A stretch of 64,000 bases of DNA from the NCBI GenBank assembly GCA_943736015.1, contig OX031072.1:17635501-17699500 (forward strand), read 5' to 3'. The position numbers and the translations under genes were made by a program. The first letter of the stretch is position 1. Each line of letters opens with the position of its first letter. Source of the DNA: Tridacna crocea. Lineage: Eukaryota; Mollusca; Bivalvia; Cardiida; Cardiidae. The notes beneath the pieces were generated by a model. It did not search any database and was not told the DNA's origin. It was given only the letters and a program-made list of their open reading frames with translations. Of this stretch, positions 1 through 58,796 are shown piece by piece.

Positions 1-279
1 ACCGACCAGAAATTTCTTTATGCCTATCTTGAAATTATTTGTATATACTTTTGTTAGTTTCCAGAAAGGGAGGTAATTACTATCTCTCTTTGTAATGAAA
101 ATATATTGCTTTTAGATTATAAATGATTATTCTTGAAAAGACAAAAAGGGAAAAGTGGCTTGGTTAAAGCAGTACAATAACACTCTTTTTTAATCAGAGC
201 AAATTTTTGTAGGATAATATAATTGTGGAAATAGCTGTTTTGCATTAGGGGTCTACTACGTTAACCAACTATTCTTATG

Positions 280-2600: not shown

Positions 2601-3314
2601 ACAACACAAGTATTACATCATTTATCATTCCGACAGTCGCCCCTATCTTTAGTCTCGTAATCGGTTTTGTTAATCTCCCCTCGAAACTGTGAATCTCTGT
2701 ATATTCAAGGACTCTGTAGACCTCTTTCGGTTGAATATCAATTCTTTAATTAATTTACTAATTCCACTTTAAGACTAGACAGTGAATGCCTCTGGAATAA
2801 AGCACGGCTGTAATTCACATTGTACCTTCAGTCGCTGCTCTCTATTTACTGCATGAATTTTGTAAATATGTCTCGCAGTTGCATACAAACCCTTGTTTTC
2901 CAAGGAAATGTTTTATCTTTTTTAAATTGCATATCTTCGTTTTCTTAAGAAATGTATAAACATTTCACCTTAACTCTTTATCACACCGAATTCTAGTCTC
3001 AAAAGAGAAATTACTTTCCCTCTAAACTGCAAGGCTTTGTATATGCAATGGAGTTACATGATTAAGATAGGATAAAAAACACAAAAGTTCTAAAATTGTA
3101 GGCTGTTCAAAGTTTCCTAAGAGGTTTGTGGTTGAATTTTAGTATTTCTGTTTTCTTGTAAAGCATGTACCTTGTGCTTTATCTATTTTTGTATAGAAAG
3201 ATTTTACACTCGTTGTGCATTATTTTCATTTTATTTTGAACTTAACTGGATAGTTATTAAAACAGTTATTATTCGGAACTGAGCGAAAAATAGAATTTGC
3301 CCTCAGTTAGATTT
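2601..3314. other. No gene recognised
   Basis: AT-rich sequence with no long open frame, no tRNA boxes and no inverted repeat that I could match. It may include the decayed 3' flank of the Tc1-like relic that follows. Confidence 0.5.
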
Positions 3315-4366
3315 TGGATAACCGTTAGTGAAATGAAGTTCAATTCCTCTACAAGGAATGCTACAAGTTGCTGAACACTTTGATACTAGACATGACAAAT
3401 CGGATTTGTAACTCATTCCACACGTATTTAGTGAGATTTAACTCGTTTGAACAGGATGGCCAATCCATACTTTGGATACCCTCCTATTCGCAAATACTCT
3501 TGGAAGACATTGGCCGTGTGAAGACGAGCATTATTGTCATTTAAAATGACCCCATCGCCAACTGTACCGGCATACAACCTTAACTGTGTGTCGAAAATTT
3601 CATCTCTGTAGCGCTGAGGAGTCAATGTGCCTCGACTGAGCCAGCTCATTCCGCCCAATACGATGATAAAGCCACCCCCATACTGATCACACTCAGCAAT
3701 GTTTGCAGCATGAAATCTCTTCCCTGGCCTTCTTTAGACTCGAACACTCAATCGAAACTATATCGGTAGTTATCTGTAAAGAGGACAACTAACATGGTCC
3801 ATTGTCAAAGCAAATCGATGGTGCCAGTAGTTTGGAGATAGTGAAGTACAAAAACGTTGTCTCCTCGATCGGAGGCCACTTTCGTGCTGTCGTGTGCGTA
3901 CGGTTTGAGTGGAAATTGTGAACCCAGAAGCATTTTTAAGGTCATAACGAAGTTGGGTTCGAGTTGCAAAGCAATTTCTGAGAGCCTGGATGACCAAATA
4001 TATGTATTAATCATCAGCTACCGATGTAGCCATGCTCCTGCTATCACCATGTTATCTGTTATTACTGACGATAGATAGCATTGTCTTTTTGCGGTCTGCC
4101 AGAATCATAATAATATTGAAAACCACTATTCCTTTCTTCTAAAATGTCCGTTGAATTGTTTATGTAATGACACAAAGCCTTTTGTCCGTTTCCCTATTAT
4201 GTGTTTATTTTTCTATAGTTTGTATGTCAACAAAGGCTAGGATTATTATCTGAGAGTAGTAGGTGTACCATACTCGTGGTATTTGACCAGGCACACCAAG
4301 TGCCTTACCAACCTCACGATGAAGAGCCCCTTCTTCCAACATTCCAACTGTCCGCAACATGTCTTT
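3315..4366 (-). pseudogene. Tc1-like (IS630-Tc1-mariner) transposase pseudogene
   Basis: Read on the minus strand, fragments in different frames line up in the order expected of a Tc1-like DDE transposase. At 4366-4261 is the N-terminal helix-turn-helix (GMLEEGALHREVGKALGVP). At 4108-4065 is the DSGRPQK linker. At 3997-3770 is the second DNA-binding helix region (ISTQTVRTRQHESGLRSRR) and then the first catalytic block, where FTDNYR replaces the usual TDESR. At 3735-3430 is YGGG...GGMSW, PQRYRDEI and the second catalytic block NDNNARLH, where the residue normally Asp before N-A-R is Asn. After a frameshift near 3470, MDWP and LVEEL continue the C-terminal domain, but the last catalytic acid appears to be Lys. 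There are several stops and shifts, and about 110 bp of extra DNA sits between the first helix-turn-helix and the linker. No terminal repeats were found. It is a dead copy with no expected activity. Confidence 0.88.
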
Positions 4367-10570: not shown

Positions 10571-10780
10571 TTGACCCTTAAGCTGCTAAGCGCGACTCAT
10601 TGATCTTTAGCCGATAGCGTAGATCAAGATCAGACTGCACAGAAAGTGCAGTCTGGCCTTCGATCTACACTGTCCGACAAGGCGATATTATTCCCAGAAA
10701 CATGCCTTTGAAATAACAATATTTGTATTTCGTATAAAAAAAATAAAATCGTCATAGTTATTTAGCAGAATAATGGTTAA
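10571..10780 (+). mobile_element. Family B hairpin MITE (piggyBac-like ends), copy 1
   Basis: Family description: about 210 bp, TTAA then CCCTTAGGCTGCTAAGCGCG at the left and TTATTTAGCAGGATAAGGG then TTAA at the right. An off-centre hairpin, TGTAGATCAAGATCAGACTG...CAGTCTGATCTTGGATCTAC, sits nearer the left end. The right part is unpaired AT-rich DNA (CTTTGAAATAGCAATATT...TTTCATTTTAG). There is no open frame. This copy starts TTGACCCTTAAGCTGC and ends AATGGTTAA, with an intact core GCACAGAAAGTGC. Confidence 0.9.
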
Positions 10781-21935: not shown

Positions 21936-22179
21936 AAAAAATCTGAATCCTACGCAAACAGTGTGAGAAGGACGTCAAATACAACAACTTGATAACTATA
22001 CATTGTGCCAAAATCCAATCCTACAAAAAAAACTATATTGGAATGGATTCTTTTGAAGTCTTCTGCATTTAAATTGTCTCTTTCGCAGACACTTCAGGGC
22101 TCTATTCATATCTTGTCTATAAATTTTCTTATTTTTAGCTTAATTAAAACGCTTCTAGAATCGTGCATCAAGATATCTG

Positions 22180-22363
22180 GGTCCTTATTCACCAACCCTT
22201 CTTAAGAACATTCTTAATCTTATTCTCCAGAATTTTGTCATTATGAAAGTAACAGAACTTCTGATTGGCTAAACCAATCAGAAGTTCTGTTACTTTCACA
22301 GTCAGGAAATCTTGAAGAATAAGACCAAGAACATTCTTAGGGATGGTTGGTGAATACGGACCC
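22180..22363. mobile_element. Family D hairpin MITE, copy 4
   Basis: Ends GGGTCCTTATTCACCAACCC and GGTTGGTGAATACGGACCC. The palindrome is shortened: AGTAACAGAACTTCTGATTG, GCTAAACCAATC, AGAAGTTCTGTTACT, so the two CCAAT motifs nearly touch. Arms are highly complementary, suggesting a young copy. Confidence 0.9.
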
Positions 22364-23576
22364 TGATTTTGTGGCATATAATTTGGTTTTAGACCTATCG
22401 GGGAAAGCATCTTTAAGAAGATGGTTCACTATCAGCCCCAGTTGCTCACATCATCAACAAGAGCTGATGTTTCGAAATGCATGATTGTTTTGGCACTCGG
22501 TCCAAACTTTCAGTTTGACAAATAAAATTATCTCCTTATGTTATAAATACTAGTAGTTTTCGAAGCGGTCATCTTTATAATCAACAGCTTAATTTCAATA
22601 ACACCAGTTATAAAATCATCCCAAGCAAACATAGCCCATAAGGGTACTAGGGTGACATTTATACCTATATTTGACCATAGACATTCGGTTTCTCAAACTT
22701 TCAGTTTCACAACTTTAGTTTTTGTCAAGTATTATTTACGTTTAAAACTCCGACATTACTATGTACTAGTAATGGCTATGTTCGCTAGGTTATAATTTGA
22801 GAACCGATGTAACTTGAAACTATTCAACACACTTGCGCTGTTTGAAAAGATGGTCCTTGCCCAACTTACCAGTATTTACAATATACAGAAATAAATGTAA
22901 ATTGCAAAGCTGAAAGTCTAGACCAAGTGCCTATGTTTTCGTTTACACCCACTGTAATTTAATCGATAAGCCTTTAGGTTGGCTTTTTTATATGTCTGTT
23001 AAGTGTTTGTTTGCGACTGGCATGTCCGTTTGCCGCAATCGGAGCCCGTCTTTCACATATACAGACGAAGCAATCTGTCTGGATCCTGAACAGCACACGT
23101 TAGATCAAACAGAAAGAAGCATGTTGTTAATGGCTGGTGCCATATAGTTAAGATATAGTTTCGTGGAAATCGTGTTTTCAAACACATAATTATAGTAAAA
23201 TACCTGACAGATCTAGAATTTCAAGATAAGAAATAATCTTCCTCGAAGTTTTCGTAACAACGTTCACCTCTTTGTAATCTGTCCTGGATGTATTGTATAC
23301 GACGAGGTTGCTTCTTGTTTTTTTTTTTTCGTTTTGCTTCAAATCCCCTCCGATAGTCTGCTGCGATCAAAAACAATGTTGCATGCAGAGAACTTTTGGT
23401 ACTAATTGGACCTTTGCATTGACGGGCAACGCAGTTGTATATCTGTAATACCTCATATGGAAAATAATGCGATTTGAACTTACGCCCAAAAAATCGTTTT
23501 GACACAAACAAAGAAAGCAGTCCTTATAGACAGACCCATGGAAAACCATTCTTGCCTATTATTTCATGCTTTCCGA
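22364..23576. other. No gene recognised
   Basis: Unassigned AT-rich DNA. A possible weak inverted similarity lies between AGCAAACATAGCCCATAAGG at 22624 and ATGGCTATGTTCGCT at 22773. Open frames at 23221-23549 (minus) are short and unassigned. Confidence 0.45.
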
Positions 23577-25561: not shown

Positions 25562-26787
25562 AAACAAGAGCCGTCAGAGACGGGTTATGCTCCCCGAACA
25601 AGTGCTTGTCATAAAATATAAGAAATTGATATAAATTCACTTCTTTTATCCTAGAAGAACCTGTTCATGCCCCCAAAAATTTGAAGTGAAAAGGCAATTA
25701 CTATCTTAGAGATAGCCAACACAAACTTGTAGAGGACAATAAGCCCAATATTAAAGCCCCTTTAAGCCCCCTTTTCCCATAAGACAATATTGAATCATTG
25801 CAATAAATACAACAGATGTGTGGTTTGTGGCATTTTTTAATAATAATTCAAAATTCGAAATTTCATAAAATTTTGAGCAGTCATGTATTAAATATTATAT
25901 AAAACAATTTTTTACATGAAGCCACCTTTTTCCGAGACGCAGCCTGAAATTGAAAAAAAGGAAGAGAGGTACCTGGGCAACGTTCCAACAAGTTCAGATT
26001 TGAAATTTCACAAAGTTTAGAGCACTGATAAAGGAGAACCTAGTGAAAAACATTTTTTTCCATGAAGTCCCTTTTCCGTGATGCAGCCTTAATTTGAGAA
26101 ACCAGGAAAGACATATTTGCGCATTAATAATTCATAGATTGCAAAAACAAAGGGCACATGTTGAAACTTGTAAAACAAGATATAACCATGAAATGTTGAC
26201 AAAAACCGAACAAGATATTAGTAAAAATTGCAATTTTGCATTAGGGCCCCTTTTTCATTTTACAAGAAACCCCCTTTTTCCATGACAGAGGGTCAAATTG
26301 AAAAAACACATAGATAAAGAAACAAGAGCACATGGTGAAACTTTGAAAAAACAATATAACCATGAAGTTTAATGAAATTTTGACCAAAACTGAATGAAAT
26401 ATTAGTAAAAATTGGAACTTTGCAAGAGGCCCCCTTTTTCCATGACAGAACGTCAACTTAAAAAATGCCCAGATTAAAAATAGCAAGGGCACATGCTAAA
26501 ACTTTCCATAAACAATATAACCATGAAGTTTCATGATATTCTGACAAAATCTGAATGAGATATTGGTAAAAATTGCAATTTTGCATTAAATTCCTTTTTT
26601 CCATGACACGGGGTCAAATTGAAAATCCGGGAAAAGTGTATCGGCACCTTACCCTAAGGAGTTCATATATGAAGTTTCATCCAATTTGGTCCAAGGGTTG
26701 TGGAGAAATCGCTTCGGACGGACGGACGGACGGACGGACGGACAGACGAAGCGGCGACTATATGCTCGCCCTTCGGGGAGCATAATA
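25562..26787. mobile_element. ~1.2 kb repeat with 14 bp inverted ends and ~160 bp internal units
   Basis: TTATGCTCCCCGAA (25585-25598) near the left end is the exact reverse complement of TTCGGGGAGCATAA (26772-26785) at the right end. The interior is built of ~160 bp units marked by CCCTTTTTCCATGACA at 26271, 26431 and 26592, with AACAATATAACCATGAAGTT between. A (GGAC)n tract at 26716-26745 precedes the right end. This is a non-coding repeat of a type I recall from bivalve genomes. Confidence 0.85.
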
Positions 26788-26913
26788 ATTCTACGAAGGG
26801 CAAAAAGGAAAATGTGGCTCGGTTAAAGTAATGACATTATTCTCATTTTTAGCAAATTCTGTAGGATAATATTATAGTGGAAAACTGTTTTCTAATACGG
26901 GTACACTACCTTT

Positions 26914-27404: not shown

Positions 27405-27690
27405 GCCGGTGTAATGCAGAGAAATGACCCTCCCCTACAAAATGACCCGGGTTATCATTCTAAGTAGAGAAATGACACCAGAAGTCATTTCGCTACGTAG
27501 AGAACTGAACTTGGTCATTATTCTACGTAGAGAAAATACCCTCTGGGGTCATTTATCTACGCAGAATAATGACCTGGGCATTCCATTACGCAGAGAAATG
27601 ACCCATGGGTCATTTCTCTACGTAGAGAAATGACCCATGGGTCATTAATAGGGGCATTAGGCATTAGGTCGTGGGGCATAACACCAGCGC
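27405..27690. mobile_element. Family E palindromic-unit MITE, copy 2 (longest)
   Basis: Starts GCCGGTGTAATGCAGAGAAA and ends GGGGCATAACACCAGCGC. It holds more internal palindromic units than copies 1 and 3, including the exact palindrome GACCCATGGGTC twice and TTTCTCTACGTAGAGAAA. The plus-strand open frame 27424-27633 is the unit translated and is not a gene. Confidence 0.87.
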
Positions 27691-30302: not shown

Positions 30303-30516
30303 TCCGTGTAATGCAGGGAAATGAACCTCCCCTACAAAATGAGCAATGGGACATTTCACGTCGTAGAGGAATGACTCGGGTCATTATTCTACGTAGACAA
30401 ATAATCCCCTGGGGTCATTTCTCTACGTAGAATAATGACCCGGATCATTCCTCTAAGTTGTGAAATGACCCAAGGGTCTTTTTGTAGGGATGGTCATTTC
30501 TCTGCATAACATCCGC
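30303..30516. mobile_element. Family E palindromic-unit MITE, copy 3
   Basis: TCCGTGTAATGCAGGGAAAT to ATTTCTCTGCATAACATCCG, with inner CCTACAAAATGAG / CTTTTTGTAGGGA. Units TTCTACGTAGACAAAT and TTCTCTACGTAGAATAATG occupy the middle. Confidence 0.85.
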
Positions 30517-36010: not shown

Positions 36011-36231
36011 TTAACCCTTTACCAAGCAATCCCGTTTTCTAACGAAGGATTTGAGAACATTATTGAAAAGAAGAATGTCTTACTAACAAGTAAGTCTCCT
36101 TTTCTTACGATGTTTTTACCGTTGAAGACATGATACACTTGTCGTCATCTGAGCATAATTGAATAAATCGTAAAGCGTCTATCAATGTGTTCAATTGCAG
36201 TCTAAAATTCTATTGTTGGGTAAAGGGTTTA
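36011..36231 (+). mobile_element. Family A MITE, copy 14
   Basis: TTAACCCTTTACCAAGCAATC, AACATTATTGAAAAGAAG, a replaced core CTTACTAACAAGTAAG, CTCCTTTTCTTACGATG, then CTTGTCGTCATCTGAGC and TTGTTGGGTAAAGGGTTT. The core has changed sequence yet is still self-complementary. Confidence 0.82.
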
Positions 36232-40544: not shown

Positions 40545-40751
40545 TTTACCTGCTAAGCGCGACTAGCTGACCTTACGCGAACAGTGTAGATCAAGATCAG
40601 ACTGCACAGTACGTGAAGTCTGATCTTGGACCTACACTGTTCGATAAGGAGATATTTTATTCCCCAAATCATGACTTAGAAACACCAATATTTAAGCTAT
40701 TAATATTGAACTAATAATTTAAGTTTAGTTATTTAGCGGGATAAGGATTAA
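40545..40751 (+). mobile_element. Family B MITE, copy 7
   Basis: TTTACCTGCTAAGCGCG, CGAACAGTGTAGATCAAG with a strong hairpin (core GCACAGTACGTGAAG), GATAAGGAGATATTTTATTC, TATTTAGCGGGATAAGGATT to TTAA. The first bases of the left end are altered. Confidence 0.88.
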
Positions 40752-40853: not shown

Positions 40854-41186
40854 GATATATAATAACGTATAGTTACGTCCAACTTTCCATCATTACTTTT
40901 TTTTCGGTTTTACCAGTGCAAGACTGTTCACGGTGTTTTGGAAAAGATCACTTCAACAAAAGTAATAACGGTTTACAGTCAACGTAAGAACCGTACTGAG
41001 AAGTCTATAAATGATATATAATAACGTATAGTTACGTTCAACTTTCCATCATTACTTTTTTTCGGTTTTACCAGTGCAAGACTGTTCACGGTGTTTTGGA
41101 AAAGGAACACTTCAACGAAAGTCGTCACGATAGTAATAACGGTTTACAGTCAACGTAAGAACCGTACTGAGAAGTCTATAAATGAT
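40854..41186. repeat. Tandem duplication, 159 bp unit
   Basis: GATATATAATAACGTATAG starts at 40854 and again at 41013, and both copies run to AAGTCTATAAATGAT. The second copy has 12 extra bases between two AGT triplets (AGTCGTCACGATAGT), which the first lacks, as expected from a slip deletion. Other differences are few, so the duplication is recent. Confidence 0.93.
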
Positions 41187-41246
41187 GCCTGAAGTCCTGT
41201 TCTTTAATTATAACACTCAACACGCTATTATATTATCGGAATGAAA

Positions 41247-41454
41247 TCAACCCTTATCCTGCAATATAACTAGAAATAAATGTTCGATTCGATCATGATA
41301 ACCTAGATATTGTTGTTTCGAAGTTATGTTGTCGGGAATGTTTCCTTATCGGACAGTGTAGATGAAGATCAGACTGCACGTTCTGTGCAGTCTGATCTTA
41401 ATCTACACTGTCCGAAAAAGGTCATATAGTCGGGTTTACCAGCCAAAGAGTTAA
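41247..41454 (-). mobile_element. Family B MITE, copy 8
   Basis: In reverse: TCAACCCTTATCCTGC, GAAGTTATGTTGTCGGG, CTTATCGGACAGTGTAG and a near-perfect hairpin around GCACGTTCTGTGC, ending with CCAGCCAAAGAG and TTAA. The inverted stem is the best preserved in the window. Confidence 0.92.
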
Positions 41455-41567
41455 TGGACTATCTCTGGTCCTCGATAACTTCTGAAACAAAATAAGCCTC
41501 AAACTACACTATATAAGTGTCAGCCCGAAAGAGGGTTTAATGAAATAATACAATCAAAGAACATTAT

Positions 41568-42942
41568 GGGTCCGTGAAGTTGGCTCAACGCTCAGTAATC
41601 GACATTCAGCTCAACACCAGCCTTGTTGAGCCAGCTCGACATTCCAGCTCAACGGCCATCTCAACAGAAAAAAATACATTATACATGTCAAAATCAAAGT
41701 CCGTTGGGCAAGCTCGACATTACAGCTCAAAGGCCAGCTCAACAGCAAAAATACTTATACGTATGTTTCGATCAATGTCCGTAGAGCCAGTTCGACATTC
41801 CAGGCTCAACAGCCAGCTCAACAGCAAATATGCATATACATGTATATGTCAAAATCGAAGTCCGTTGAGCAAGCTCGACATTCCAGCTCAACCGCAAGCT
41901 CAACAGTAAAAATACTTATATATATCGATCAATGTCTGTTGAGCCACCTCAACATTCCAGCTCAACAGCCAGTTCAACAGCAAAAATACATTTATATGTC
42001 AAAATCAAATTCCGTTCAGCCAGCTCGAGATTCTAGCTCAAATACTAGCTAAATAGCAAATATACATGTCAAAATCAAAGTCCGTTCAGCCAGCTTGACA
42101 TTCCAGCTCAAGAGCAAGCTCAACAGTAAAAATACGTATACATGTTTCGATCAATGTCCGTTGAGCCAGCTCGACATTCAAGCTTAACCGCCAGTTCAAC
42201 ATTAAAAATGCTTATATGTTTAGATCAATGTCTGTTCAGCCGTTGCTGTTGAGCTGGCCGTTGAACTGGAATGTCGAGTTGGCTCAATGGACATTGATCG
42301 AAATATATCCATTACTATTTTTACTGTTGAGCTGGCGGTTGAGCTGGGATGTCGAGCTGGCTGAACAGACTTTGATTATGACATATACACATGTATGTAG
42401 TTTTGCTGTTGAGCTGGCGGTTGAGCTGGAATGTCGAGCTGGCTCAACGGACTTTGCTTTTGACATATGTATTTTTGCTGTTGAACTGGCCGTTGAGCTG
42501 GAATGTCAAGCTGGCTCAACGGACATTGATCGAAACATATGTACAAGTATTTTTACTGTTGAGCTGGAATGTCGAGCTGGCTCAGCGGACTTTGATCTTG
42601 ACATATATATGAGTTTTTTTTTCTGTTGAGCTGGTAGTTGAGCTCGAATGTCGAGCTGGCTCAACGGACATTGATTGAAACATATGTATAAGTATTTTTT
42701 ACTGTTGATCTGGCCGTTGAGCTGGAATGTCGAGCTGGCTCAACGGACATTGATCTAGTATTTTGCTGTTGAACTGGCCGTTGAGCCGGAATGTCGAGCT
42801 GGCTGAACAGACTTTGATTTTGACATGTACATGTATTTTTTCTGTTGAGCTGGCCGTTGAGTTGGAATGTCAACCTGGCTCAACAAGGCTGGCGGTTGAG
42901 CTGAATGTCGATTATTGAGCGTTGAGCCAACTTCACGGACCC
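41568..42942. mobile_element. Foldback element, 1375 bp, tandem-repeat arms, 9 bp TSD
   Basis: The left end GGGTCCGTGAAGTTGGCTCA and right end TGAGCC-AACTTCACGGACCC are inverted. Flanking them is GAACATTAT on both sides (41559-41567, 42943-42951), an exact 9 bp duplication. Each arm of about 670 bp is a tandem array of 70-83 bp units of the type TCCGTTGAGCCAGCTCGACA-TTCCAGCTCAAC-GGCCAGCTCAACAG plus an AT-rich spacer. In the left arm unit starts fall at 41700, 41778, 41861, 41935, 42011, 42081, 42157 and 42231. Spacers are of two types, GTCAAAATCAAAG and GTTTCGATCAATG. The right arm repeats this in reverse, with the turning point near 42240. Long arms of subrepeats define Drosophila FB-type foldback elements, and FB makes 9 bp duplications. 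All open frames inside (S/A/Q-rich or W/L/S-rich) are translations of the unit. Confidence 0.95.
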
Positions 42943-43222
42943 GAACATTATGACAAAATAAGAAGTTACAACTCATGACATCGTACTCTTCCATTATCCG
43001 ATGCTAAACTATGACAAAAGAATGTTTATAACTGTAGTGGATGGGCCACATTACACGCCAAATACTAGTAAATGATATGAGTGGTGCTTGGTCAAACGAA
43101 CATTCTACATCATAATACGGTCAGTTGTTCGACAAAATGGATTTTATTGATCCAAAATCAGAGCTCCAGATAAAGGGAGTGATTTGGATTTCAAAGTTGA
43201 AAATATGAATTATTCTTACCTA

Positions 43223-49436: not shown

Positions 49437-50427
49437 CAAATTCGGAATGGTGTGGTGCGGGATCTACCGATCTTGTCCAAACAAGCAGTTAAAGTTGAGG
49501 AAACTAGAACCCTTCCATGAGTTTCTCCGTGGACAGTCGAGACATCAGTGTTGACAAAGATTGAATAGTTATGATGTATACAACCATTTAATTTCCATAA
49601 CTTGTCTGGAGCTTATATATTTATGATTTACAATGCAAATATACACACCCGAGATCCAATTTATAGTCTATGTGTGCCGTCCGCAATAACAACACGTGTT
49701 TCCATTATTTCCACTATTTCTATATTTATCTATCCCAGAATAGATTCGGTTTCCATTTTTTTTTCTTTTGTTCCTTCCTATCTGGTTTTCTATCGTTTTT
49801 GTCTTAGATATAAACAAAATGTTGAAGAAGAGACCCTTTGATTAAACATGTATGTATATATTTTTACCAATCACAATTTCCATCTTTTAAATTTTCTTAG
49901 TACCAAAAACTAAGTTAGAAAAAAAAAACATCATAAAATATTCAGCTATGACAAAAAATCTCGACCACTTAATATGACGTCACAACGTCGTAGGCTTCGA
50001 TTTTTCACTTGGCAGTGTAATTCGAAAATGTGTATTTTAGAAAGAACAAGAATGCCGATACAATCTATCAAAATACTTAATTAATGCATTATTTTTTTAC
50101 TAAGAGCGACAGGAAAGGGGATGTTTCTATTTCTACTTCATGTAAAGTGCAAAGACATTTGTCAAAATAGCTACATGTATCATATGGTTTCGTTCGTTTC
50201 TAAGAAATTTTCTTCAACTCTTGCACTGCCGTATATAGTTTATAAGGTATTCTTCTCAGACCGGTGCACATGGCAGATCTCAATACTTCGATTCCATTGA
50301 TGAACATTATGTGACACGTTCAAGCAAACAGCTTTTTCTTAATATCCAGAAAACTGGTAGGAATTAAAGGAACACGGGCTTGAAAACAAGTTTCTTTTTC
50401 GACGTAGCTGTATGTGCTGGCTTTTGA
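49437..50427. other. No gene recognised
   Basis: AT-rich. The open frame 49602-49841 is I/S/Y-rich with no motif. No repeats matched. Confidence 0.45.
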
Positions 50428-50667
50428 CCATGAACCTTAAGCAAGGCAACTTAGTAAGTCTAGTACAGGTGAAATCATATATCTCGAGTAAGGCAACTTG
50501 GTCACGATCTGGAACAGGTGAAACCATGGATCTTGAGCAAGGTAACTCAGTTACAGTCTAGTACAGGTGAAACCGTGGATCTTGACCAAGGCAACTTGGT
50601 CACAGTCTGGTACAGGTAAAACAATGGACCTTGAGCTAGGCAACTTGGTCACAGTCTTCTGCAGGTG
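50428..50667. repeat. Displaced segment of the ~49 bp minisatellite
   Basis: About five units of the array found at 55150. The order of variant units (ACCTTAAGCAAGGCAAC, TTAGTAAGTCTAGTAC, CTCGAGTAAGGC, GTCACGATCTGG, CCGTGGATCTTGA, GACCTTGAGCTAGGC, CAGTCTTCTGCAGGTG) matches 56341-56555 specifically. This short segment keeps a unit part that is deleted in the main array. Confidence 0.92.
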
Positions 50668-55149: not shown

Positions 55150-58100
55150 CAAAGTGCTTCAGCAAGGAAACTCAGTTAAAGATGAGTATACATGTAGGTG
55201 AAACCATACACCTTGCGCAAGGCAATTTAGTTACAGACGAGTACAGGTGAAACCATGGACCTTGAGTGAGGTAACTCAGTCATAGTCTTGTACAGGTGAA
55301 ACTATGGACCTTTATGGACCTTTAGCGAGTTAACTCAGTCAGAGTCTTGTACAGGTGAAACCATGGAACTTGAGCGAGTTAACTCAGTCATAGTCTTGTA
55401 CAGGTGAAACCATGGACCTTCAGCGAGGCAACTCGGTCACAGTCTAGCACAGGTGAAACCATGGACCTTCAGCGAGGCAACTCTGTCACATTCTGGTACA
55501 GGTGAAACCATGGACCTTTAGTGAGGCAGCTTAGTCACATTCTAGTACAGGTGAAACGATGGACCTTGAGCAAGACAACTCAGTCACATTCTAGTACAGG
55601 TGAAACCATGGAGTTTGAGCAAGGTAACTCAGTCAGATTCTTGTACTGGTGAAACCACGGACCTTCAGCAAGGCAACTCTGTCACATTTTGGTACAGGTG
55701 AAATCATGGACCTTTAGCGAGGCAGCTTAGTCACATTCTGGTACAGGTGAAACCATACACCTTGAGCAAGGCAACTTGGGCACAGTCTGGTACAGGTGAA
55801 ACCATGGACCTTTAGCGAGGCAGCTTAGTTACATTCTAGTACAGGTGAAACAATACACCTTGAGCAAGGCAACTCAGTCACATTCTAATACAGGTGAAAT
55901 CATACACCTTGAGCAAGGCAACTCGGACAGAGTGTGGTACAGGTGAAACCATACACCTTGAACACGGCAACTTAGTCACGTTCTAGTACAGGTGAAACCA
56001 TAAAACTTGAGCAAGACAACTCAGTCACAGTCTAGTACAAGTGAAACCATACACCTTTAGCAGGGAAACTTAGTCACAGTCTTGTATAGGTGAAATCATG
56101 AATATTGAGCGAGGTAACTGAGTCACATTCTAGAACAGGTGAAACCATACACCTTGAGCAAGGCAACTTAGTCACAGTCTTGTTAAGGTGAAACCATGGA
56201 CCTTGAGCAAGGCAACTTAGCTACAGTCTAGTACAGGTGAAACAATAGAACTTGGGCACGGCAACTTAGTAACAGTCTGGTAAAGGTGAAACCATGGATA
56301 TTGAGCAAGGCAACTCAGTCACAGTCTAGTATAGGTAATACCATGGACCTTAAGCAAGGCAACTTAGTAAGTCTAGTACAGATGAAATCATATACCTCGA
56401 GTAAGGCAACTTAGTCACGATCTGGATCTTGACCAAGATTACAGTCTAGTACAGGTGAAACCGTGGATCTTGAGCAAGGCAACTTGGTCACAGTCTGGTA
56501 CAGGTGAAACAATGGACCTTGAGCTAGGCAACTTGGTCACAGTCTTCTGCAGGTGAAATCATGGACCTCCAGTAAGACCTCAGTCACAGCCTTCTATAGG
56601 TGTAACCATGGATCTTGATCAAGGAAACTCAGTCAAAGTTTTGTACACGTGAAACCATGGACCTTGAGCAAGACAACTTAGTCACTGTCTGGCACAGGTG
56701 AAATCATGGATCTTGAGCAAGGCAACTTAGTTACAGTGTCGTACAGGTGAAATCATGGACTTTCAGCATGGTAATTCAGCCACAGTCTTGTACAGGTGAA
56801 ATCATAGACCTTGAGCAATTCAACTTAGCCACCGTCACGTACAGGTCCAACCATGGATCTTGAGCAAAGTAACCCAGTCAGAGTCTTTACAGGTGAAACC
56901 ATGGACCTTAAGCAATGTAACTCAGTCACAGTCTTGTATAGGTAAAACCAAAGACACTGAGTAAGGCAAGTTAGTCACAGTTTCCTATAGGTGAATCCAT
57001 ACACCTTGAGCAAGGCAACTGAGCAACATTCTAGTACAGGTGAACCATGGACCTTGTGCAATACAACTCAGTCACAAATTGGTACAGGTGAAACCATGGA
57101 CTTTGAGCAAGACAACTGAGTCACATCTGGTACAGGTGAAACCACACACCTTGAGCAAGGGAAATCAGTCACAGTCTAGTAAAGGTGAATCCATACACCC
57201 TGAGCAAGACAACTTAGTCACAGTCTTGTATAGGTGAAACCATGGACCTTAAGCAAGAGAACTCAGTCACAGTCTGCTTTAGGTAAAAACAAAGACCTTG
57301 AGCAAGGCAACTCAGTCACAGTTAAGTGTAGGTAAAACATGGACCTTGAGGAAGGTGAATCACGCATAGTCTTGTACAGGTGAAACCATGGACCTTAAAT
57401 AAGACAACTCAGTCAGAGTCTTGTATAGGTGAAACCATGGACCATAAGCAAGGTAACTCAGTCACAGTCTAGTACAGGTGAAACATGGACCTTGAGCAAG
57501 GCAACTTAGTCACAGTCTAGTACAGGTGAACATGGACCTTGAGCAAGCCAACTTAGCCACAGTCTAGTACAGGTGAATCATGGACCTTGAGCAAGCCAAC
57601 TTAGCCACAGTCTAGTACAGGTGAACATGGACCTTGAGCAAGGTAACATAGTCATAGTCTAGTACAGGTGATACATGGACTTTGAGCAAGGCAACGTAGT
57701 CATAGTCTAGTACAGGTGAAACCATGGACCTTGAGAAATGCAACTCCGTCACAGTCTTCTACAGGTGAAACCATGAACCTTGAGCAAGGTAACTCAGTCA
57801 GAGTCTTGTACAAGTGAAACCATGGACCTTGTGCAAGGTAACTCTGTCACAGTCTGGTAGAGGTGAAACCATGGATCTTGAGCAAGGTAACTCAATCACA
57901 GTCTGGTACAGGTGAAATCATGGATCTTGAATTGGGCAACTAAGTCACAGTCAAGTACATGGTCCTAGAGCAAGACAACTAAGTAACGGTCTTGTACAGG
58001 TGAAACCATTCTCATTGAGCAAGGCAACTTAGTCACCAAGTCATAGTCTAGTACAGGTGAAACCATAGACCTTGAGCAGAGCAACTCAGTCACAGTATAG

Positions 58101-58796
58101 TACAGGTGAAACCACAGACCTTCAGCAAGGCAACTCAGTCACAGTCTAGTACAGGTGAAACCATAGAGCTTGAGCAAGGCAATTTAGTCACAGTCTAGTA
58201 CAGGTGAAACCTTTGATCTTGAGCAAGACAAATTAGTCACAGTCTAGTACATGTGAAACCATGGATCTTCAGCAAGGAAACTCAGTCACATTCTTGTACA
58301 GGTGAAACCATACACCTTCAGCAAGGCAACTAAGTCACAGTCTAGTACAGGTGAAACCATGGATCTCGAGCAAGACAAGTTAGTCACAGACTAGTACAGG
58401 TGAAACTATTTACCTTAAGCAAGACAACTTAGTCACAGTCTTGTACAGGTGAAACCATGGACCTTGAATAAGACAACCTAGTTACAGTCTTGTACAGGTG
58501 AAACCATGGAATTTTAGCAAGAAATCTCTGTCACATGCTTGTATAGGTGAAACCATACACCTTGAGCAAGGCAACTCAGTCGCAGTCTTGTACAGGTGAA
58601 ACCATGGACTTTGAGCAAGGCAACTCAGTCACATTCTGGTACAGGTGAAACCATTTACCTTGAGCGCGACTAAGTCACAGTCTGGTACAGGTGAAATCAT
58701 GGACCTTGAGCAAGGGAACTTAGTCTGAGTCTTGTACAGGTGAAACCATGGACCTTGAGCAAGACAACTTAGTCTAGTACAGATGAAACTATAGAC
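55150..58796. repeat. ~3.65 kb minisatellite, ~49 bp unit
   Basis: The unit is approximately GTACAGGTGAAACCATGGAC, CTTGAGCAAGGCAACTCAGT, CACAGTCTA (49 bp), repeated about 70-75 times without interruption. Variants concern ACCATGGACC/ACCATACACC, CTCAGT/CTTAGT and TCTAGT/TCTTGT/TCTGGT, and runs of identical variants show local homogenisation (for example AAGCCAACTTAGCCACAG at 57543 and 57592). Each unit carries CAGGTG. The period is not a multiple of three and stops occur in both strands, so it is not coding. Open frames at 57040-57237 and 58629-58904 are shadows. Confidence 0.97.

Follow-up and report, generated by a model that had tools for sequence, protein, structure and literature searches.

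Long inverted ends built of tandem subrepeats are known from several transposons, and the design of the element described here is not a new one: Tm1, Tetris, Galileo and the Drosophila FB elements cover its architecture, and its family is a further member. FB elements combine long arms of short tandem subrepeats with 9-bp target site duplications, as the present element does; their subrepeat lengths differ from those found here, and we liken the two by description with no claim of membership. Galileo duplicates 7 bp of its target, against 9 bp here. It also has long, internally repeated inverted ends that change independently of each other, exists in some copies as two ends only and carries secondary transposase binding sites in its repeats (PMC3573991). 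Accounts of its transposase describe binding at several sites in the long ends (PMC3688188, PMC3573991). Galileo belongs to the P superfamily, and its P-type transposase is the point of difference (PMC3573991).

Tm1, a Mutator-type foldback element of root-knot nematodes, shares with the present family subrepeat ends whose unit number varies by end and by copy, duplications of 9 bp and many small copies without a transposase (PMC3169594). As described there, it differs in its subrepeat of about 14 bp, present as 1-9 units per end, whereas the units here are about 76 bp long, with 5-34 profile hits in each arm. In Tm1 the inversion leaves out the outermost 7 bp, whereas here it begins at the first base, and a Tm1 copy with a predicted Phantom-type transposase is known, whereas none was found here in the reading frames scanned (PMC3169594). 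Tetris of Drosophila virilis likewise consists of a terminal domain and tandem units with a stretch in common, has no autonomous copy among those reported and was assigned to Mutator from duplications of 8-10 bp; it differs in its units of about 220 bp and in being reported from three structurally complete copies, and it has seeded long satellite arrays (PMC4079207). The tandem-repeat MITEs of clams and oysters (the pearl family, DTC84 and CvA) are also non-autonomous bivalve elements with satellite-like arrays, but the arrays described in PMC5139131 are short, with up to six monomers, whereas here nearly all of the element consists of two facing arrays.

Among the papers listed by the literature searches, which took in few subscription papers, we found no earlier report of this family or of any mollusc foldback family. 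Such elements could escape repeat pipelines, because a mollusc survey stripped tandem repeats from its automatic libraries (PMC10294476). Within one genome, the family provides natural long palindromes in large number and of varied lengths, and its arms connect a transposon end with satellite-like arrays, as those of Tetris do in Drosophila.

An inverted-repeat element between exact 9-bp repeats

The window, which is the whole 64,000-nucleotide stretch of Tridacna crocea DNA analysed here (G000:C17:17635501-17699500), contains an inverted-repeat element of 1375 bp at 41568-42942, directly between exact 9-bp repeats of GAACATTAT (Table 1). The original prediction of two inverted arms in a 1375 bp unit with an exact 9 bp target duplication directly outside it therefore holds. 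The first 27 bases are identical at both ends of the element, which is inverted from its first base. Alignment of one arm with the other gave 543 identities in 610 positions, together with 108 bases of internal gaps, part of which reflects roughly one additional unit in the right arm; the local score is 710, whereas 200 dinucleotide-preserving shuffles averaged 21.4 and peaked at 32. The window has four occurrences of the 9-mer GAACATTAT; 100 shuffles averaged 1.07 and never exceeded 3. Two of these occurrences are the flanking copies, and the other two (at 36055 and 50302) are no more than chance would provide.

Table 1. Features of the element copy in the window, in window coordinates
Feature	Position	Strand	Remark
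Target site duplication, left copy GAACATTAT	41559..41567		adjoins inverted repeat; agreement of 9-bp flanks is a family property
Left terminal domain, 60 bp, tip GGGTCCGTGAAGTTGGCTCAACGCTCA	41568..41627	+	matches the 28-tip majority
Left arm, eight tandem units of 70-83 bp, forward	41628..42239	+	spacers A B A B A A B B; inner end (42239) placed by hand
Turn, head-to-head junction region of last forward and first reverse unit core	42207..42242		overlaps left arm end
Right arm, reverse: part unit at turn and eight units of 64-82 bp	42243..42881	-	
Right terminal domain, inverted copy of left	42882..42942	-	57/59 aligned bases equal
Target site duplication, right copy GAACATTAT	42943..42951		adjoins inverted repeat

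A BLAST comparison of the element with the rest of the window returned only four matches, of 16-29 bases and with E values of at least 0.07, and no further copy. Exact-pattern scans in viral and prokaryote contig collections found nothing; these scans say little, because of what the collections hold.

A dispersed family with a 9-bp target site duplication

A DNA search of the source genome (1,048,827,098 bases in 31 contigs) with the element, as had been proposed, returned at least 267 overlapping matches, which are pieces and not copies; the element is not single-copy and belongs to a dispersed family. The best 40 of 680 candidates were scored, so the copies analysed below lean towards likeness to the window copy. 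Twenty-one places (L008-L028, L008 being the window copy) were examined at length. They differ in length and sit at many chromosomal places; one of them, L016 (G000:C17:17730385-17732395), shares a contig with the window copy and lies some 52 kb downstream of it. Forward units precede reverse units in 20 of the 21, and L027 has forward units only.

Both family tips (GGGTCCGTGAAG; GGGTCCGTGAAGTTGGCTCAACG as an inverted pair) were accepted in 14 of these places, on which the flank, arm and turn counts are based. Five places with one tip (L009, L012, L018, L023, L027) were left out of these counts, as were, by judgement, L019 and L025, which have one good tip and weak internal tip-like matches with 7 differences. 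Three copies were kept despite weak right tips, namely L010 and L020 (7 differences, at the element's end) and L017 (5 differences).

The 9-bp flanks agree at all nine positions in five of the 14 copies (L008, L011, L014, L021, L024), at eight in L016 and L022, at seven in L015 and L028 and at six in L026; in L010, L017, L020 and L013 the agreement is 5, 4, 2 and 1 of 9, respectively. As a control, each left flank was paired with the right flanks of the other copies, and none of the 182 cross-pairings reached 8 and two reached 7. A 9-bp duplication is thus a property of the family, with 8-9 of 9 positions agreeing in 7 of 14 copies against 0 of 182 controls. Agreement of this kind was seen at length 9 only, lengths of 6-8 and 10-12 showing none. 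The five exact duplications have A or T at 38 of 45 bases.

These flanks bear on whether the element might belong to another order of tandem-repeat elements. Helitron-type insertion is not known to leave a target duplication, nor are Helitrons known to have inverted ends. The present family has both inverted tips and a 9-bp duplication, and in this it departs from Helitrons and Helentrons. Array-bearing Helentron-like and pearl elements are known from oysters and clams (PMC7492417, PMC5139131), which would make a Helentron-like or pearl element with satellite-like arrays a candidate; that reading is already largely contradicted by the 9-bp duplications, with flanks agreeing at 7-9 of 9 positions in nine of the 14 two-tipped copies and with tips that are inverted, and we give it scarcely any weight.

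An element-free host repeat at the L026 insertion point

The host repeat that contains L026 also occurs in L020, L012 and L025 and at window 7-264 (reverse strand), in all four cases without the element. These four element-free copies cross the L026 insertion point and carry a single copy, or a variant, of the 9-mer whose left copy in L026 is CTTTAACCG. A fifth, shorter match to the host repeat, at window 26782-26912, also spans this point. What is left of the right duplication in L026 is 8 bases long, one base having been lost and another substituted, in an alignment judged by eye. L026 arose by insertion into a known repeat, for which these copies provide a paralogous empty site. An empty site had been sought for the window copy; it exists for L026, within the same genome, and not for the window copy itself, whose left flank lies in another repeat and for which no listed match spans the junction in the roughly 200 kb compared. 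L028 has two weak matches that span its site, at 68-72% identity.

Taken together with long inverted subrepeat ends that have little between them, the dispersed copies, the duplication and the empty site of L026 give the family the features of a foldback element. The body is made only of tandem units, as it would be if a local satellite array had simply been inverted or if the inversion were an artefact of the assembly. Such a non-transposon origin is very improbable: the tips are family-wide, copies of varied length are dispersed, and the empty site and the comparison of the 9-bp duplications with the 182 controls already largely contradict it.

Tandem units resemble pieces of the terminal domain

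In each arm, tandem units of 64-83 bp (about 76 bp) come after an outer terminal domain of about 60 bp. The range of 70-83 bp first given for the subrepeats fits the left arm but is too narrow for the element as a whole. A unit comprises a conserved block with a 16-bp dyad near GTTGAGCCAGCTCRAC, an AT-rich stretch and then a spacer end of type A or B. The dyad bears out the description of the unit as near-palindromic: with up to 3 mismatches it has 12 matches on the forward strand and 14 on the reverse strand within the element, and 0 on either strand in the rest of the window. Two spacer types are present, as predicted, and 51 of 72 adjacent pairs alternate (binomial p 0.0003), a count taken over the halves of 14 elements instead of exact arms; strict alternation, however, is absent from both arms of the window copy, the right arm reading A B B A B A A B from its right end inward.

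The tip and the units have TCGACATTC-AGCTCAAC-NCCAGC in common, and the tip scores 33.5 against the left arm, where 500 shuffles of the tip reached a maximum of 29. This common stretch suggests that the units arose by multiplication of parts of the terminal domain, an origin also proposed for the units of Tetris.

Turns differ between copies and partner arms are scarcely more alike than others

When scanned with a unit-core profile, each of the 14 two-tipped copies consisted of one forward run and, behind it, one reverse run. Each element has 15-55 profile hits and each arm 5-34, with partial units and fragments of the terminal domain included in the count, and unit number varies both between the two arms and between copies, as is characteristic of foldback elements. 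The gap between the forward and reverse runs is at most 76 bases in 13 of the 14. A dynamic-programming fit, which used two unit sequences put together by eye, placed the head-to-head switch at 12 different unit-position pairs among 13 copies, L010 and L015 being the only copies with the same turn. In L016, L017, L024 and L026 the turn falls inside the AT-rich stretch, in which the fit is at its least certain; with these four pooled as one, a cautious count still gives at least nine different turns among the 13.

Over their outer 450 bp, arms are 87.2% identical within elements (14 pairs) against 86.4% between elements (364 pairs). The possibility that the arms are recent inverted copies of each other was rejected, since only 2 of the 28 arms had their best match in their own partner. 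The varied turns and the closeness of the two identities indicate that the turnover of units has outrun the likeness of partner arms, and the centre of the palindrome does not seem to have been inherited from one master copy.

The same comparison bears on a possible use of the palindrome by the host. In a predicted fold of the single DNA strand (1393 nt, -568.1 kcal/mol, a value with no shuffle baseline at that length), pairing extends along the whole element and leaves the 9-bp repeats unpaired. A strand that folds back over its whole length could suit a copy that was moved by a transposase and is now kept by the host as a source of hairpin RNA, for example in small-RNA silencing. Within-element likeness barely exceeds between-element likeness and so gives no sign of selection to keep the arms paired; we regard a host-kept hairpin as highly unlikely.

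Several processes could account for the varied turns. Palindrome centres can lose symmetry by small deletions, as PMC8701086 reports for a mouse transgene with reference to work on centre breaks, and the two ends of Galileo change independently (PMC3573991). Loss of the middle of the element through excision repair could also yield varied turns. In the reading that we favour below, each arm would independently gain and lose units by unequal exchange or slippage, and many copies would have regained a short palindromic centre in separate events, either template switching or asymmetric deletion at the turn. The 13 short turns may form a readable record of palindrome centres lost and remade outside the laboratory.

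A further reading is put forward tentatively, and with more doubt than conviction: the family may in essence be two facing satellite arrays, whose units are spare part-copies of the terminal recognition domain and whose palindrome, instead of descending from a master copy, forms afresh in almost all copies. On this view the arms would act as interchangeable modules, joined through excision repair, template switching or recombination between copies.

Relative age of the window copy

The tips of the window copy agree at 57 of 59 aligned bases, the second-best value of the 14 copies after L022. From this agreement, and from a left tip that equals the majority sequence of the 28 tips, we infer that the window copy is among the younger of the 14, in terms of relative age. 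The insertion had been called recent, which the tips favour weakly. Against it, the inner arms of the window copy differ by about 11-13%, and at 13% divergence an exact 9-mer would survive with a probability of 0.29. Comparing units that lack a true correspondence may account for much of the inner-arm divergence.

Dating by arm divergence was rejected, because the identity of the inner arms tracks neither that of the tips (Spearman -0.15) nor the decay of the duplication (0.00). Tip identity and duplication decay gave a coefficient of 0.41, which was not significant (p 0.15).

A transposase probably supplied in trans

The element has six reading frames of 75 aa or more, none of which matched a Pfam family at E 0.1. 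With the dispersal of the family, its 9-bp duplication and the empty site of L026, this agrees with the original prediction of a mobile foldback element without its own transposase. The MULE DDE domain (PF10551) was sought in 97 of the 106 window frames of at least 75 aa (the element's 6 and 91 others), with 9 frames of low complexity or minisatellite sequence set aside, and was found in none of the 97. The only Pfam hit among the 91 window frames was a Tc3-type transposase helix-turn-helix (PF01498, E 1.9e-9).

A longer relative might carry a transposase between its arms. At 5502 bp, L028 is the longest copy examined and the only one with sizeable non-arm stretches, one of 496 bp in the left arm (2069-2564) and one of 884 bp between the forward and reverse runs (2882-3765). 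These stretches contain 12 reading frames of at least 45 aa, and no transposase domain was found in the 10 that were scanned. A GGCGGCAC-like word lies close to both the start and the end of the first stretch, which is possibly a nested insertion. The second stretch contains a GATA microsatellite.

P and hAT elements give duplications of 7-8 bp, and duplications of 9 bp occur beyond MULEs. The P superfamily would lead one to expect a duplication shorter than 9 bp, and the flanks of the present family agree at 9 only; this length lies within the 8-11 bp of the Mutator (MULE) superfamily. In PMC6446971, where that range is given for MULEs, 9 bp is the commonest length stated in the rows of Table 1 that were consulted. 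On the strength of this length and of the likeness to Tm1 (PMC3169594), we consider the element to be a non-autonomous cut-and-paste foldback transposon that is moved in trans, most likely by a transposase of the Mutator (MULE) type, and put the probability of this reading at roughly three in four.

A foldback of the same design could instead depend for its movement on a transposase from another superfamily (hAT, Merlin or, as for Galileo, P-like), its arms having evolved independently. Foldback arms have arisen more than once, as the P-type transposase of Galileo indicates (PMC3573991; PMC3169594), no transposase was found in the frames scanned, and Merlin is possible given that bivalves have at least one element of every superfamily covered by the survey of PMC10294476. 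The duplication, however, is 9 bp long, with no agreement at 7, 8 or 10, and the same survey reports MULEs in all mollusc genomes it analysed and Merlin, in its automatic libraries, almost only in cephalopods (PMC10294476). We judge such an origin improbable, though not negligibly so.

If a Mutator-type transposase does move the family, it would be made elsewhere in the genome and would recognise the terminal domain of about 60 bp. The same protein would probably also bind the internal units, each of which has a piece of the terminal domain and the 16-bp dyad. Insertion would proceed through a 9-bp staggered cut, perhaps with a preference for AT-rich sites. If the transposase is found, it will be possible to test directly whether the repeated units serve as spare binding sites.

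Other repeats in the window

Other tandem and inverted repeats occur in the window. Near-perfect short palindromes (ACAGTGTAGAT...) lie in and near the left flank of the element, at 41343-41420 and 40580-40643, and this stretch has many more matches in the window, for example near 10600, 13300, 20050, 24900, 31500, 45800, 51650 and 53850. At 40854-41190, a stretch of about 160 bp is present twice in tandem, with indels. In the inverted-structure scan of the window, nested inverted repeats of 99-128 bp at 1485-2259 came second to the element. A palindrome at 22175-22367 has two 94-bp arms that are 82% complementary, with 5 bases between them. Tandem units of 30-32 bp, each palindromic (AATGACCC...GGGTCATT), form two clusters at 27459-27646 and 30325-30494, which share inverted copies. 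Finally, a 49-bp minisatellite of about 73 copies occupies 55196-58774, and a 4.8-copy array of a similar unit lies 4.5 kb upstream at 50427-50657.
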